NCBI GenBank assembly: GCA_035571835.1
Contig: DATNBU010000035.1
Span: 1 to 35,375, forward strand
Length of the DNA stretch: 35,375 nt
Reading direction: 5' to 3'
DNA from: Candidatus Limnocylindrales bacterium
GTDB lineage: Bacteria > Desulfobacterota > Binatia > UBA1149 > CAITLU01
The translations under genes were made by a program, and so were the position numbers. The notes beneath the pieces were generated by a model. The model did not search any database. It saw only the letters and a program-made list of their open reading frames with translations, and was not told where the DNA came from. Positions 8,871-22,128 of this stretch are shown in pieces (the first letter of the stretch is position 1; each line of letters starts with the position of its first letter).

Positions 8871-11195
8871 TTGAAAAAACCTCTCATCGTCCTGGCTTCG
8901 GGACTAGTCGTGCTCGTCGCTACGGCCGGCTCTGCTCAAATGGAGCCGGAAGCAAAGTCGTGCCGCCACAGCGTCATCAAGGCCGCAGAGCGATATGCGG
9001 ATTCGCTGGTCGATACGGTCGCCGATTGTCTCGAGCAGCGTGTGAAGGGGAACCTCGCCTCGGGGACGGACTGTAGCGATCCAGCCCAAGCCGCGGCAGC
9101 GACCGGCACGGACTTGTCGCTCACAAACGCATTCGCAGATAGCCGGTTGTCGGGTGCGTGCGAATCGGTCGCTCCGTTCGACGCATATTACACCTCGTGC
9201 CCCGCGCCTTGCGACGGTATCGCGGTATCCGACTGGACGTCAGTGGGCGAATGCATGTCATGCATCGTTGCGTCGCACGTCGGATCGTTTGCCGATGCTG
9301 CGCTTGGCAGCGCGAGCGTTCCGCTCAACGAGCAGGAGGCGAACTGCGCGCTTTCGATGTATGCGACGGCCAGGGAAATGGTTTCGGCCGTTCTCCAAGC
9401 TCATCGCCGCTGCCAACAGCGGGCTGCGACCCCGAACGCCTGCCTCGAGCTTCCCAAATCCACCCGCGCAAAGCTGATGAAGGCTAGGCGCAAGATCTGG
9501 GACAACGTCAGCCCGGCATGCGATACCGCAAACTTCGCGGCTCTCGGGACGTGCGCCACCGGCCTTTCAGACTCGGGCTGCGTGTCGGCGTCCGCTGAGC
9601 GCTACGGTGCCCTGCTTGCCTACGACGGTGCCCGCATGCTCGGCGCGGTGCCGAATGATTCTCCGCTGACGACCTTGACCGACATCGGCACGACTGACGA
9701 CAACACATGCGGCATCCGAAGCGACGGTACAGTCGCATGCTGGGGCGCCAACATGTTCGCAGAATCTACGCCACCTCCCGGCACTTTCTCGAAGCTCTCA
9801 GTTGGTGGCGCAAACGTTTGTGGCCTCCGGCCTGACGGCTCGCTCGATTGCTGGGGTGCCAGAAATCTCAGCTCCGCACCGTCCGGCACGTTCGTACAGG
9901 TCTCGGTGGGGTACTTGAATAGCTGCGGTGTCCGTACGGATGGAAGCATCCAGTGCTGGGGTAACAACGAATACGGTCAAGGGAACGCTGCGTTGGGAAC
10001 GTTCACACAAGTCGGCGCCAGCCAGTCTTTCAGCTGCGGTCTTCGTTCCGACCAGACGATTGCGTGCTGGGGTGGACGAAACGGCCCGGTGACGCCGCCC
10101 ACTGGAACTTTCGTCGAACTCGCAGTCGGCGGCTATGCGTGTGCGCGGCGCGCCGATGGAACCGCCATTTGTTGGAGTGATGGCGCTGACCCGATTGGAC
10201 CCGAGCCCGACGAAACGTTCGTCGCAATTCGATCTCACGGGGCCCGGGCGTGTGGGCTGACTCCGGCAATGGACATCGAATGCTGGGGTCCCGACATTTA
10301 TCCTGCGCCCGGCGGGCCCTTCCAGGATTTCTCGGTCGGCTACTATGGAGGATGCGGGCTTCGTCCCGACGGCGGCGTCGAGTGCTGGGGACCTCGCGGC
10401 GAGACCGGGCTCGCGATCCCAAGACACGACTTCGTTCAGGTCGGCACTTCCCAACAGCAATTCTCCTGCGCGCTTGGCACCGACGGCGAGGTCGAGTGTT
10501 GGAGCGGAGTGGCTCCGATGTCTCTGCCGCCATCGGGCCCTTTTACGCAGCTTTCGACGGGAGACTGGCATTCGTGCGCGCTGCGAGCGGACCAGACGAT
10601 CGTCTGCTGGCAGGCATACTCTTACTCGACACCAATGGACGAGCCTTCCGGCGATCTGTTCTCGATGGTGTCGGCAGGAAATGAGTCCAACTGCGGCCTA
10701 CGCACGGACGGCACGGTGGAATGCTGGGAGAACGACACGTGGGATCCGCTGCCGGTGCCCGCAGGAACTTTCACGTCAGTGGCCGCAATGTCGGCGCATT
10801 CGTGCGGCATTCGGCCGGATGGTTCCGTCGAGTGCTGGGGAGCCAACAGCTTCGGGCAGGCATCGCCGCCGGCGGGGACGTTCACGCAAGTCACCGGTTC
10901 GTCGGCCTACTCGTGCGGAATCCGAAGCGACGGAACCGTCGCGTGCTGGGGACGATCGGACTACGGATCGACTCGGGCCCCTTCCGGCAAGTTCACGCAG
11001 CTCGCAGCTCGCTACTCTGCCGCTTGCGGTCTGCGACAGGACGGTTCGGTGGATTGCTGGGGCGATGACTTTGCGGGAGCGGTGTACGCACCTCCGGGCA
11101 CGTTCGTAAACGTGGCGACGAGCGCCGACTACAGTTGCGGCGTGCGCACGGACGGAGCCGTCGTCTGCTGGGGACGTCAGGCGCGCAATCTCTAG
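8871..11195 (+). CDS. Secreted RCC1-repeat protein (14 Cys-paired repeats)
   Basis: The gene starts with TTG at 8871, nine bases after AAGGGG. The N-terminus MKKPLIVLASGLVVLVATAGSAQ is a clear signal peptide. Residues ~25-275 form a helical, cysteine-containing domain (pairs such as CPAPC and CMSC) of unknown type. From about residue 280 to the end there are fourteen copies of a ~35-residue unit built as CGxRxDGxxxCWG, then PPxGTFxxxxxG. This is the RCC1/alpha-tubulin-suppressor repeat. Fourteen units would make two seven-bladed propellers. Nearly every unit has two cysteines ten residues apart next to an invariant Trp, unlike intracellular RCC1, suggesting one disulfide per blade after export. 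Units 5, 6, 8 and 9 are more diverged. Such secreted RCC1 arrays are common in delta-proteobacterial genomes; the ligand is unknown. Confidence 0.88.
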   Translation: MKKPLIVLASGLVVLVATAGSAQMEPEAKSCRHSVIKAAERYADSLVDTVADCLEQRVKGNLASGTDCSDPAQAAAATGTDLSLTNAFADSRLSGACESVAPFDAYYTSCPAPCDGIAVSDWTSVGECMSCIVASHVGSFADAALGSASVPLNEQEANCALSMYATAREMVSAVLQAHRRCQQRAATPNACLELPKSTRAKLMKARRKIWDNVSPACDTANFAALGTCATGLSDSGCVSASAERYGALLAYDGARMLGAVPNDSPLTTLTDIGTTDDNTCGIRSDGTVACWGANMFAESTPPPGTFSKLSVGGANVCGLRPDGSLDCWGARNLSSAPSGTFVQVSVGYLNSCGVRTDGSIQCWGNNEYGQGNAALGTFTQVGASQSFSCGLRSDQTIACWGGRNGPVTPPTGTFVELAVGGYACARRADGTAICWSDGADPIGPEPDETFVAIRSHGARACGLTPAMDIECWGPDIYPAPGGPFQDFSVGYYGGCGLRPDGGVECWGPRGETGLAIPRHDFVQVGTSQQQFSCALGTDGEVECWSGVAPMSLPPSGPFTQLSTGDWHSCALRADQTIVCWQAYSYSTPMDEPSGDLFSMVSAGNESNCGLRTDGTVECWENDTWDPLPVPAGTFTSVAAMSAHSCGIRPDGSVECWGANSFGQASPPAGTFTQVTGSSAYSCGIRSDGTVACWGRSDYGSTRAPSGKFTQLAARYSAACGLRQDGSVDCWGDDFAGAVYAPPGTFVNVATSADYSCGVRTDGAVVCWGRQARNL

Positions 11196-14612: not shown

Positions 14613-16613
14613 TCAAAGCCCGAACGGATACGTCTCCGGCAGCTGGCCGTGCGCATCGCGAGCCGGCGCGGGCAACGGCGAAACGGCGGTCGTGCGGTCG
14701 AACCAGATGTATTCGTCGAACTGCTGCGGAAGGCTCGCGTAGAAGTAATGGCTGCCGCGCTCGGTTTCGGGTCGATAGATCACTCCGATCGCGCGTTCGA
14801 GTCGCGACGGCATCAGCTCGTCACGGAGGTCCGCGCGCCGCGGCTCGCGCAGATGCGTGAGGAAGGCCGGCACGTCCGAATCATGGAACAGCCGTTCATA
14901 GCTTTCCTCGTGTGACGGCCGCACGGTCATGCGCTCGACCGGTTCGTCCCAGTTCGAAGCGGCCGCCACCGTGCCGTGGTCGGTTCCAAAACCGACGATA
15001 TAGACCTTGTCGCCGAACTTCTCGCGGCAGAGCTGGCCGACGTTGAGCTCGCCGCGCTCGCTCATTTCCGTCGCGCGCGCATCACCCAAGTGCGAGTTGT
15101 GCTCCCAGACGATTCCTCGCGATTGCGGGCCATAGAAGGCGAGAAGCGATTGCAGCGTGTCGAACATGTGCGAGTCGCGCAGGTTCCACGACGTCGCCGA
15201 TCCGTAATACATGGCCCGGTAATAGCGCTCGGCGTCGGCCACGACGCGCGCGTTCTGCACCGCGTCGAAGAATCGCTCGCCGTCCTTGAGCGCGTAATCC
15301 ATGCGCCGCTGCAGCAGATCACGCAGGATCCGCACGACCGCTTCTTCCGAGCTCGCGTAGCGACCGACCAGCACGGCCTTTCCGTATGCGGCAGGATCCT
15401 TCTGCCACGGAGTCAGCGTGCCGTATCTGGCGCGAGCCGCATTCGCCGCCGCAGGGTCCACGCCGCCGAGATATTCGAGAACGGCAGCCATCGACGTGAA
15501 CATGCTGTAGAGGTCGAGGCCGTGGAATCCGACTCGCTCGGCGCGATCCGTGCGGGAAAGATTGTACGCGCGGAGCCGTCCGACAAACTCGTCGACCTCT
15601 TCGTTGCGCCACATCCAGGCAGGGAACCTGCTGAACGGAGTGAACTTGAGACCGGAGCGCGGCGGCTCGCCGAGCACGTAAGTATCGATGCGTGCGGCAT
15701 CGGGCCAGTCGGCCTCGACCGCCACGAAATCGAACCCGCGCTTTTCGATCAGCTCCATCGTGATGCGGGCGCGCATCCGGTAGAACTCGCTGGTTCCGTG
15801 TGTCGCCTCACCGAGCAGAACGAGGCGCGCATCGCCGATCCGCTCGACAAGCGCTTCGACGCACGATGAATTCAGATCGGTGATCGGCTCGGCCGTCTCG
15901 GTGACGAGTCGTACGAGCGATGCGTCACCAGTACTCGAACGAACGCGGGCGATTTCGATGTCGCCTCGTTTGTCGTCGGCCCATCCCTGCTCTCCGATAA
16001 GAGGAACGAATCGCACCTCGGCAAGCCGCTCTTCCGTCAACTCGCCGGAAGCGTGTTTCGTGATTGTGAGCAGGACCTGCGATTCGGTCTCTCCGACCGG
16101 AATCACCAGCCGGCCGCCGCTTTTCAGTTGAGACAAAAGCGCTTCCGGAGGACGAGGCCCGCCGGCAGCGACAGCGATCGCATCGTACGGCGCGTGCTCT
16201 GGCCAGCCGAGCGTGCCGTCGCCGTGGAGCACTTCCACATTGTCGTAGCCGAGCCGTGCGAGCCGTTCGCGTGCGTCGTTCGCGAGCGATTCGTAGCGCT
16301 CGACCGTGAAGACTTTGCTGGCAACCTGACTGAGAATCGCTGCCGCGTATCCGGACCCCGTCCCGATTTCGAGAACGCGTTCTCCGCCCTTGAGATCGAG
16401 CGCATCGACGGTCATGGCGACGACATACGGCTGCGAGATCGTCTGCCCCTCTGCGATCGGCAGGGGCGCGTCGCGATATGCGAACTCCGCAAGCTCCGGC
16501 GGCAGGAATTGCTCACGCGGAACCCGCCGGAACGCTTCGAGAATCCGCGGGTTGCCGATACCGCGACGGGCGAGGTGATTTTCGACCATGCGAGCGCGTT
16601 CGTCGGTGCTCAT
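14613..16613 (-). CDS. Fusion of L-isoaspartyl methyltransferase (PCMT) and erythromycin-esterase-like domain
   Basis: The 666-residue protein starts at ATG 16613 with GGAGG six bases upstream. Residues ~1-215 are a PCMT: RVPREQFLPPELAEFAYRDAPLPIAEG, QTISQPYVVA, and the SAM-binding motif VLEIGTGSGYAAAIL near residue 80. These enzymes methylate isoaspartyl residues in damaged proteins so they can be repaired. Residues ~240-660 are an erythromycin-esterase-like domain. Its LGEATHGTSEFYRMR carries the family's catalytic Glu (~268) and His (~271), and WEHNSHLGDARA and GFGTDHGTVAAASNWDEP are further family blocks. There is no signal peptide, so it is cytosolic. The esterase domain has unknown substrate here; family members hydrolyse macrolide lactones or act as succinoglycan-biosynthesis-like hydrolases. 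The fusion suggests hydrolysis or repair of an ester, lactone or succinimide-like damage product, but that is inference. Confidence 0.9.
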   Translation of the reverse strand: MSTDERARMVENHLARRGIGNPRILEAFRRVPREQFLPPELAEFAYRDAPLPIAEGQTISQPYVVAMTVDALDLKGGERVLEIGTGSGYAAAILSQVASKVFTVERYESLANDARERLARLGYDNVEVLHGDGTLGWPEHAPYDAIAVAAGGPRPPEALLSQLKSGGRLVIPVGETESQVLLTITKHASGELTEERLAEVRFVPLIGEQGWADDKRGDIEIARVRSSTGDASLVRLVTETAEPITDLNSSCVEALVERIGDARLVLLGEATHGTSEFYRMRARITMELIEKRGFDFVAVEADWPDAARIDTYVLGEPPRSGLKFTPFSRFPAWMWRNEEVDEFVGRLRAYNLSRTDRAERVGFHGLDLYSMFTSMAAVLEYLGGVDPAAANAARARYGTLTPWQKDPAAYGKAVLVGRYASSEEAVVRILRDLLQRRMDYALKDGERFFDAVQNARVVADAERYYRAMYYGSATSWNLRDSHMFDTLQSLLAFYGPQSRGIVWEHNSHLGDARATEMSERGELNVGQLCREKFGDKVYIVGFGTDHGTVAAASNWDEPVERMTVRPSHEESYERLFHDSDVPAFLTHLREPRRADLRDELMPSRLERAIGVIYRPETERGSHYFYASLPQQFDEYIWFDRTTAVSPLPAPARDAHGQLPETYPFGL

Positions 16614-16829
16614 GGCGAACCTCCGCGTGGGTGAACCCCAACCGATCCGATCAGCCGAGAGCCAGAATCGCCCGAAAGCGAGCAAGAGTCACGCACTACC
16701 GGTCTTCAAGCCGCTTGTCCTCATGCACGCGAATCCACGCGGCGGGTTTGCGCATTTTTGCAGGCTTGCGGCGTCACTCCCGTCTTGTAGAAACCTCTGC
16801 ATGCCAGTAGCAACAATCGTAGAAACTTC

Positions 16830-21714: not shown

Positions 21715-21780
21715 CTCGATTGCGCCGTGAATCGCATCAGTGACTTTCCGATCGCTGCTACGGCTGATAACGATGGCTAC

Positions 21781-22128
21781 ATGATCAGGCCAAGGCAGAT
21801 TCTGCTTCCCCTGCTCGTTGCTGTCGCGCTTGCAGCGGCTTCGCCGGTATCGGCTACCGACGACGCGGCGCCGGCCGCGGCAACGGCAAAACAGGCGAAG
21901 TATCTTCTCCACGTCGACGGCATGACTTGACCCTCCGGCTGTCCCGCGCGAGTTCGCGCGGCTCTGTCGAAGATCGAAGGTGTCGAGTCGGTCGACGTGG
22001 ACATGGACAGCAAGACCGCAACCGTCACCGTGAAGGCGGGTCATACTTTGACGAAGGAAGCCTGTGACAAGGCTTTCGAGGGTACGAAGTATTCGGTCCG
22101 GACGTTCGAGAGCGCCGGCAGCAGCTGA
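21781..22128 (+). CDS. Exported heavy-metal-associated (HMA) domain protein, probable selenoprotein (TGA codon at 21928-21930)
   Basis: Read through one in-frame TGA, the frame gives 115 residues. Signal peptide MIRPRQILLPLLVAVALAAASPVSA is followed by a short Ala-rich linker and then a complete HMA/MerP-like beta-alpha-beta-beta-alpha-beta domain: YLLHVDGMT-U-PSGC, PARVRAALSKIEGVESVDVD, KTATVTVKAG, EACDKAFEGTKYSVRTFE. The TGA is codon 50, exactly where the first Cys of the conserved GMTC metal motif belongs; Cys54 is the second ligand and Cys95 a third Cys. Sequence similarity to HMA continues equally on both sides, and no frameshift is needed. A SECIS-like hairpin lies just downstream (listed separately). 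The upstream frame is open to a GTG at 21727, but ATG 21781 gives the proper signal peptide; no clear ribosome binding site is seen. The expected role is binding or transfer of a thiophilic metal, or redox chemistry, in the periplasm. The alternative is a recent nonsense pseudogene. Confidence 0.8.
21931..21961 (+). promoter_or_regulatory. Candidate bacterial SECIS element
   Basis: Directly after the in-frame TGA (21928-21930), CCGCGCG (21944-21950) and CGCGCGG (21955-21961) form a perfect 7-bp stem with loop AGTT. The loop begins 20 bases after the TGA and has G as its second base. Published bacterial SECIS models ask for a small apical loop with a G in its first two positions, about 16-37 bases after the UGA, so this fits. 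Folding energy and SelB binding are untested, and GC-rich coding DNA can form such stems by chance. Confidence 0.65.

Follow-up and report, generated by a model that had tools for sequence, protein, structure and literature searches.

An in-frame TGA at a ligand position of an exported HMA-domain protein: a probable U-x3-C selenoprotein and its relatives in several bacterial phyla

Selenocysteine (Sec) is best known from redox enzymes, and the usual metal site of HMA domains is a CxxC motif, though not in every HMA protein. Specifically, two described families combine Sec with a domain of this kind. NF041115 (UxxU metal-binding (seleno)protein) is a small HMA-like domain whose ligand position is taken by Sec, its motif having two Sec residues with two residues between them, while NF045683 (MerT/CopZ fusion-like heavy metal transport selenoprotein, MerT_CopZ_Se) joins an HMA/CopZ-like Sec domain to a MerT part. 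The selenoprotein table of PMC13188914 holds MerT-type selenoproteins and a UxxC cation P-type ATPase, the latter a metal transporter whose Sec-Cys motif is assumed here to lie in an HMA domain, and a Sec-containing MerP is listed without details in PMC2398784. MerP itself (TIGR02052; PDB 1afi and 1osd) is an exported single HMA domain with CxxC and no Sec.

The locus described here lies in a stretch of 35,375 nucleotides from a bacterium of the class Binatia (contig DATNBU010000035.1), and ‘the window’ denotes this whole stretch as it was analysed. Without recoding, the open reading frame list ends the gene at 21930, as the earlier note had said that ordinary annotation would. When the TGA is translated as Sec, the frame 21781-22128 gives a product of 115 residues containing U50, C54 and C95. 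The features are as follows.

21781-22128, forward strand: candidate selenoprotein gene (115 aa), an exported HMA-domain protein of the U-x3-C type, from translation and homology
21781-21855, forward strand: predicted signal peptide, approximately residues 1-25, ending in VSA (cleavage site placed by eye)
21907-22092, forward strand: HMA domain, residues 43-104, beta-alpha-beta-beta-alpha-beta, from PF00403 and an AlphaFold2 model
21928-21930, forward strand: in-frame TGA at codon 50, probably read as selenocysteine, from TGA or Cys in relatives and the Sec machinery
21940-21942, forward strand: codon of Cys54, putative second ligand three residues after Sec50, from conservation
21944-21961, forward strand: SECIS-like hairpin with a 7-bp stem and AGUU loop, the loop being separated from the TGA by 20 nt
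22063-22065, forward strand: codon of Cys95, possible third ligand, kept only in nearer relatives
22126-22128, forward strand: second TGA, the true stop codon, from translation

The most likely start codon is ATG at 21781, GTG at 21727 being possible, and the predicted signal peptide reaches a hydropathy maximum of 2.98 (12-residue window). The frame is open up to the second TGA, and PF00403 matches residues 43-104 (E 1.5e-13, 51.3 bits against a gathering threshold of 24.8, with Cys substituted for Sec in the search); the description of the frame as intact and HMA-like across a single TGA thus holds. The ligand site reads VDGMT-U-PSGC, so that the usual two-residue-spaced CxxC site is absent and three residues (PSG) lie between Sec50 and Cys54; translation bears out the U-x3-C site that had been proposed. 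An AlphaFold2 model for which 33 aligned Sec forms were used has a mean pLDDT of 81.2, with block means of 93-97 over residues 41-110, and the closest PDB folds are MerP and CopZ, the best being MerP 1osd, although the alignment to these CxxC structures needs a one-residue gap at the ligand site. The third Cys at position 95, pointed out in the earlier note, is indeed there and is shared by the nearest relatives, although of the 44 aligned members of the family approximately half lack any Cys beyond Cys54. By eye, the neighbours of the gene are kinase-like and phosphoketolase-like and give no functional clue. Elsewhere in the window, a long minus-strand frame (14613-16685) seems by eye to be fused from two parts, which we take from their motifs to be protein-L-isoaspartate methyltransferase-like and erythromycin esterase-like, and the long frame 8871-11195 carries many CWG-type repeats that, again by eye, resemble RCC1-like beta-propeller repeats.

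Homologues were matched in 12 of the 13 genomes of the order. TGA at codon 50, within GMTUPSGC, occurs in four of the 13, including that of the window (G000, G001, G002 and G009), the nine strong matches without TGA (L020-L028) all have GMxC-x3-C, and the weaker matches L030-L032 have CxxC. In G004, the sole other genome of the genus, selB is present and the homologue was not found. Among the 148 genomes of the class, six further ones carry U-x3-C (G079, G080, G087, G089, G090 and G091), which gives a class count of at least 10 of 148 Sec genomes, with at most 29 candidates scored per genome. Five other TGA matches (G007:C29, G056, G019, G013 and G018) were not counted; their TGA is not at the ligand but either precedes the probable start or falls at the end of the gene. 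All 20 class forms from the protein search (10 Sec and 10 Cys) retain Cys54, which is also invariant in alignment A2, although for most rows of the latter it was required by the search motif. Relatives thus have TGA or Cys in the column of the first metal ligand, where the TGA had been placed by the earlier note, and across order and class the downstream part is conserved, which is the pattern that the note had named as support for a selenoprotein.

For the part downstream of the TGA, comparison with the window gene gives a dN/dS of 0.22 for L018 (dN 0.24, dS 1.08), 0.35 for L019 (dN 0.31, dS 0.88) and 0.49 for L029 (dN 0.50, dS 1.02), while L018 and L019 differ from each other by dN 0.14 and dS 0.53 over the same part. 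Purifying selection after the TGA is clear in the near pairs and weaker in the far one (L029), and with downstream dN/dS below 1 the loss of selection past codon 50 that would speak against the gene is not seen. In the tree, the Cys rows stand in two places within the class group; since 21 of the 49 inner branches are drawn open, this is compatible with a single origin, which the Cys rows may have had.

Other HMA genes with in-frame TGA codons were observed alongside these. Two have U-x2-U with two TGA codons and are of the NF041115 type (L065 in G132:C293, scoring 92.1 bits against the NF041115 cut-off of 95, and L066 in G107:C570), and U-x2-C forms are found in G131, G118 and G132 (L064, L067, L068 and L069). 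G107, which is 81% complete, gave no selB match.

The genome of the window (5.46 Mb in 46 contigs, 98.4% complete) was searched for selA, selB, selC and selD, as had been suggested, and the machinery was found. More specifically, selB scores over its family cut-off, selA is directly upstream of it, selD begins directly downstream at the contig end and apparently continues on contig C6 (two pieces at contig ends), and the tRNA-Sec scores 68.5 bits against a cut-off of 47 and has the anticodon TCA (UCA in RNA). A second TGA gene is present (G000:C2:149084-149446, L149), the only one with an in-frame TGA among 22 AhpC-TSA matches of the genome; it is AhpC-TSA/TlpA-like with the active site WASWUGC, and PMC13188914 tabulates a UGC-containing TlpA family selenoprotein. 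Judging by this second gene, Sec seems to be employed by the organism in other proteins too. All eight molybdopterin matches of the window genome are free of in-frame TGA, so that no candidate for a Sec formate dehydrogenase was found among them. Across the class, selB is present in all 10 Sec genomes, but also in 118 of the 148 genomes overall; of the genomes with the Cys form alone it is found in seven of nine (no match in G007 and G076), a difference in the expected direction that is not significant (10/10 vs 7/9, p 0.21).

The hairpin that follows the TGA (CCGCGCG-AGTT-CGCGCGG; the fold of 21938-21965 has -14.2 kcal/mol) agrees in all four points with the bacterial SECIS model described in PMC13188914. 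A 7-bp stem with an AGTT loop at SECIS distance, as described in the earlier note, is therefore present, yet its weight as an argument for Sec is reduced. Qualifying hairpins occur in 39 of 41 Sec forms, yet also in seven of 10 Cys forms (the scan received 11 Cys loci, of which the CxxC locus L049 was dropped as it has no C-x3-C). Codon shuffling gave a mean z of -1.01 for the Sec vs -1.28 for the Cys forms, with p 0.050 for the window gene, and the hairpin-test Fisher p values of 6.4e-7 (41 Sec forms) and 0.028 (10 Cys forms) are too small, as related sequences were counted as independent. Two observations speak in favour of the element. Apical hairpins of -6 kcal/mol or lower, taken as strong, are found in 18 of 41 Sec and none of 10 Cys forms (Fisher p 0.009, likewise too small with related rows). 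Two Arg sites also lie over the hairpin; both are Arg in all 10 class Sec forms, against two and one of the 10 Cys forms, respectively. This pattern was judged on the class protein-search set alone (10 + 10 related rows, three of the Cys rows being near copies), because the motif of the wider scan demands Arg-Val-Arg-like codons. As neither the Cys controls nor the codon shuffles clearly separate Sec from Cys forms, the hairpin was rejected as proof of Sec, and it is weak evidence for this reading because many Cys homologues qualify too.

A scan of 84,980 species genomes with the motif GMT-U-x3-C-x2-R-V returned 51 loci. On reading the translations, 37 were judged to be HMA genes with GMT-U-x3-C, and 14 were set aside as chance matches (L083, L091, L092, L101, L104, L106, L108, L111, L115, L121, L122, L126, L127 and L132). 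By record title, the 37 comprise 18 loci from Planctomycetota, five from Kofleriaceae/Myxococcales, one from an uncultured delta proteobacterium, two from Poribacteria, one each from Armatimonadetes, Verrucomicrobiia and Eremiobacterota, three from further bacteria and five from genomes of the window’s class that were already counted in the class search. Two of the loci (L103 and L118) are in one genome, and L087, truncated at a contig end, was retained in the 37 because it resembles L110 and L125, but it entered neither the alignments nor the test on selB. The earlier argument that a chance nonsense mutation is an unlikely source of this TGA gains from the survey, given that a TGA at the same codon recurs in three further genomes of the order, six more of the class and the 37 scan loci, of which five belong to class genomes already counted.

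A profile covering the region beyond the second ligand and built from seven Cys forms gave 27 of the 37 loci at E 0.00016 or better (five of the 27 being from class genomes), with E-values of 0.0015 to 1.6 for the remaining ten. The 14 chance loci had E 5.6 or worse or were unlisted, and among 1020 shuffled sequences the lowest E was 0.00083. The six Myxococcal-type genes match this profile weakly (E 0.011 to 0.54), are mutually alike and form one supported tree group. Of 35 genomes that have a family gene, 28 contain selB, compared with six of 14 with a chance match (one-sided Fisher p 0.015); when the five class genomes are left out, the counts are 23 of 30 vs six of 14 (p 0.032). The seven family-gene genomes without selB at E 1e-60 all have record titles that call them MAGs. 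In the set of 44 aligned proteins, whose starts were chosen by hand and a few rows of which do not begin with a start codon, PF00403 matches 42, simple patterns find a hydrophobic N-terminal stretch in 42 and a lipobox in 19, and MerT (PF02411) matches one. Tandem pairs of U-x3-C HMA genes were observed in three Planctomycetota records (L110, L125 and L128). In an Armatimonadetes record (L116:4644-5189) the U-x3-C domain lies behind a MerT-like stretch, with E 4.5e-27 and 94.9 bits to MerTP_fusion, below the cut-off of 180, and no selB match was found in that genome.

From the sequence, it is very probable that the window gene encodes a genuine selenoprotein, with UGA codon 50 read as Sec, and is not a pseudogene, because of the Sec machinery in its genome, the same-codon TGA in relatives, the selection downstream of it, the Cys homologues and the spread of the family. 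SelB and Sec-tRNA(Sec) would decode UGA codon 50 as selenocysteine, probably assisted by the hairpin just downstream, and the TGA at 22126 would terminate translation. The 115-residue product would be exported by way of its predicted signal peptide and would fold as a single HMA domain, in which Sec50 and Cys54 would probably form a selenolate-thiolate site in the periplasm for a soft metal, e.g. Hg(II), Cu(I) or Ag(I); the protein would then serve as a metal carrier or sponge, like MerP or CopZ. With a selenolate as its first ligand, an exported HMA domain would be expected to hold soft metals more tightly than its Cys counterpart. Given that Sec is read, such a metal role for the pair is fairly likely, judging from the fold.

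The same selenoprotein might instead use Sec50-Cys54 as a selenenylsulfide redox pair or as an oxidant scavenger, with no metal site. This is a tentative alternative within the Sec reading, possible but on the unlikely side: the fold is that of HMA domains, nearest to MerP and CopZ and not to thioredoxin, and one family member (L116) has the MerT-like stretch in front, while according to PMC13188914 most uncharacterized selenoproteins are likely to be redox in function, the x3 spacing is unlike the CxxC of the aligned HMA structures, whose metal chemistry may not transfer, and inspection by eye revealed no metal-resistance gene beside the window gene. Among those frames around the gene that were listed in a survey of 32 loci, no recurring metal or redox partner was seen by eye.

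A further reading, in which UGA is a genuine stop that leaves a short signal peptide fragment as product, or is read through with another amino acid, takes its force from the fact that an in-frame TGA alone is no proof of Sec and that the hairpin is not diagnostic. It is nevertheless very unlikely, as the protein beyond the TGA is conserved and under selection, the homologues, including those of G007 and G076 without a selB match, have Cys, the analogue of Sec, at this position, and TGA also ends this same gene as an ordinary stop. A pseudogene, or an assembly error that turned a Cys codon into TGA, is extremely improbable, even though standard annotation ends at 21930 and homologues have Cys, since the same TGA is found in separately assembled relatives and at 37 loci from several phyla, with purifying selection past the TGA and the frame open to the domain end.

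Taking the window gene as a selenoprotein, its relatives would, with moderate confidence, make up an undescribed exported and often lipid-anchored U-x3-C family of selenolate metal-binding proteins in Planctomycetota, Myxococcales, Poribacteria, Verrucomicrobiia, Armatimonadetes, Eremiobacterota and the window’s class, in which selenium outside the cytoplasm may bind or detoxify a soft metal and whose genes would be missed by annotation that cuts them at the TGA. Indeed, U-x3-C genes are easily overlooked, as a gene caller that stops at the TGA leaves the signal peptide alone. If true, such a widespread exported metal-binding family would broaden the role of selenocysteine, and its natural Sec/Cys pairs would allow a direct measurement of how selenium changes the affinity and selectivity for metals.

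Compared with the described systems, the window protein lies under the cut-off of all 18 NCBIfam families that it matches at E up to 1, and the best E-values of the other 43 aligned members suggest that these reach no NCBIfam cut-off either. NF041115 is matched by all 44 (E up to 0.001), the window protein scoring 40.7 bits against a cut-off of 95; with its two Sec residues at a spacing of two, this family differs from the window protein, which has one Sec and a Cys, three residues between them and a signal peptide. Its match to NF045683 (E 7.4e-10, 38.7 bits, cut-off 375) starts at position 140 of the 235 of the model, the window protein being without the MerT part. The UxxC protein is a P-type ATPase, whereas the window protein is an exported single domain with U-x3-C. 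MerP shares this exported single-domain layout and is the best fold match, but has CxxC and no Sec, and the window protein stays below its model (38.3 bits against 92.55 for TIGR02052) and has no mer operon that was recognised by eye. There is no U-x3-C HMA entry in the selenoprotein table of PMC13188914, and no paper pairing UxxxC with selenocysteine was found in a literature coverage that is partial, so an earlier description is possible. The nearest homologues are the C-x3-C HMA proteins of the order and class, which have the architecture and spacing of the window protein with Cys in place of Sec. With no model or paper found for them, the U-x3-C spacing and export mark a subfamily of the known HMA selenoproteins of the UxxU and UxxC types.
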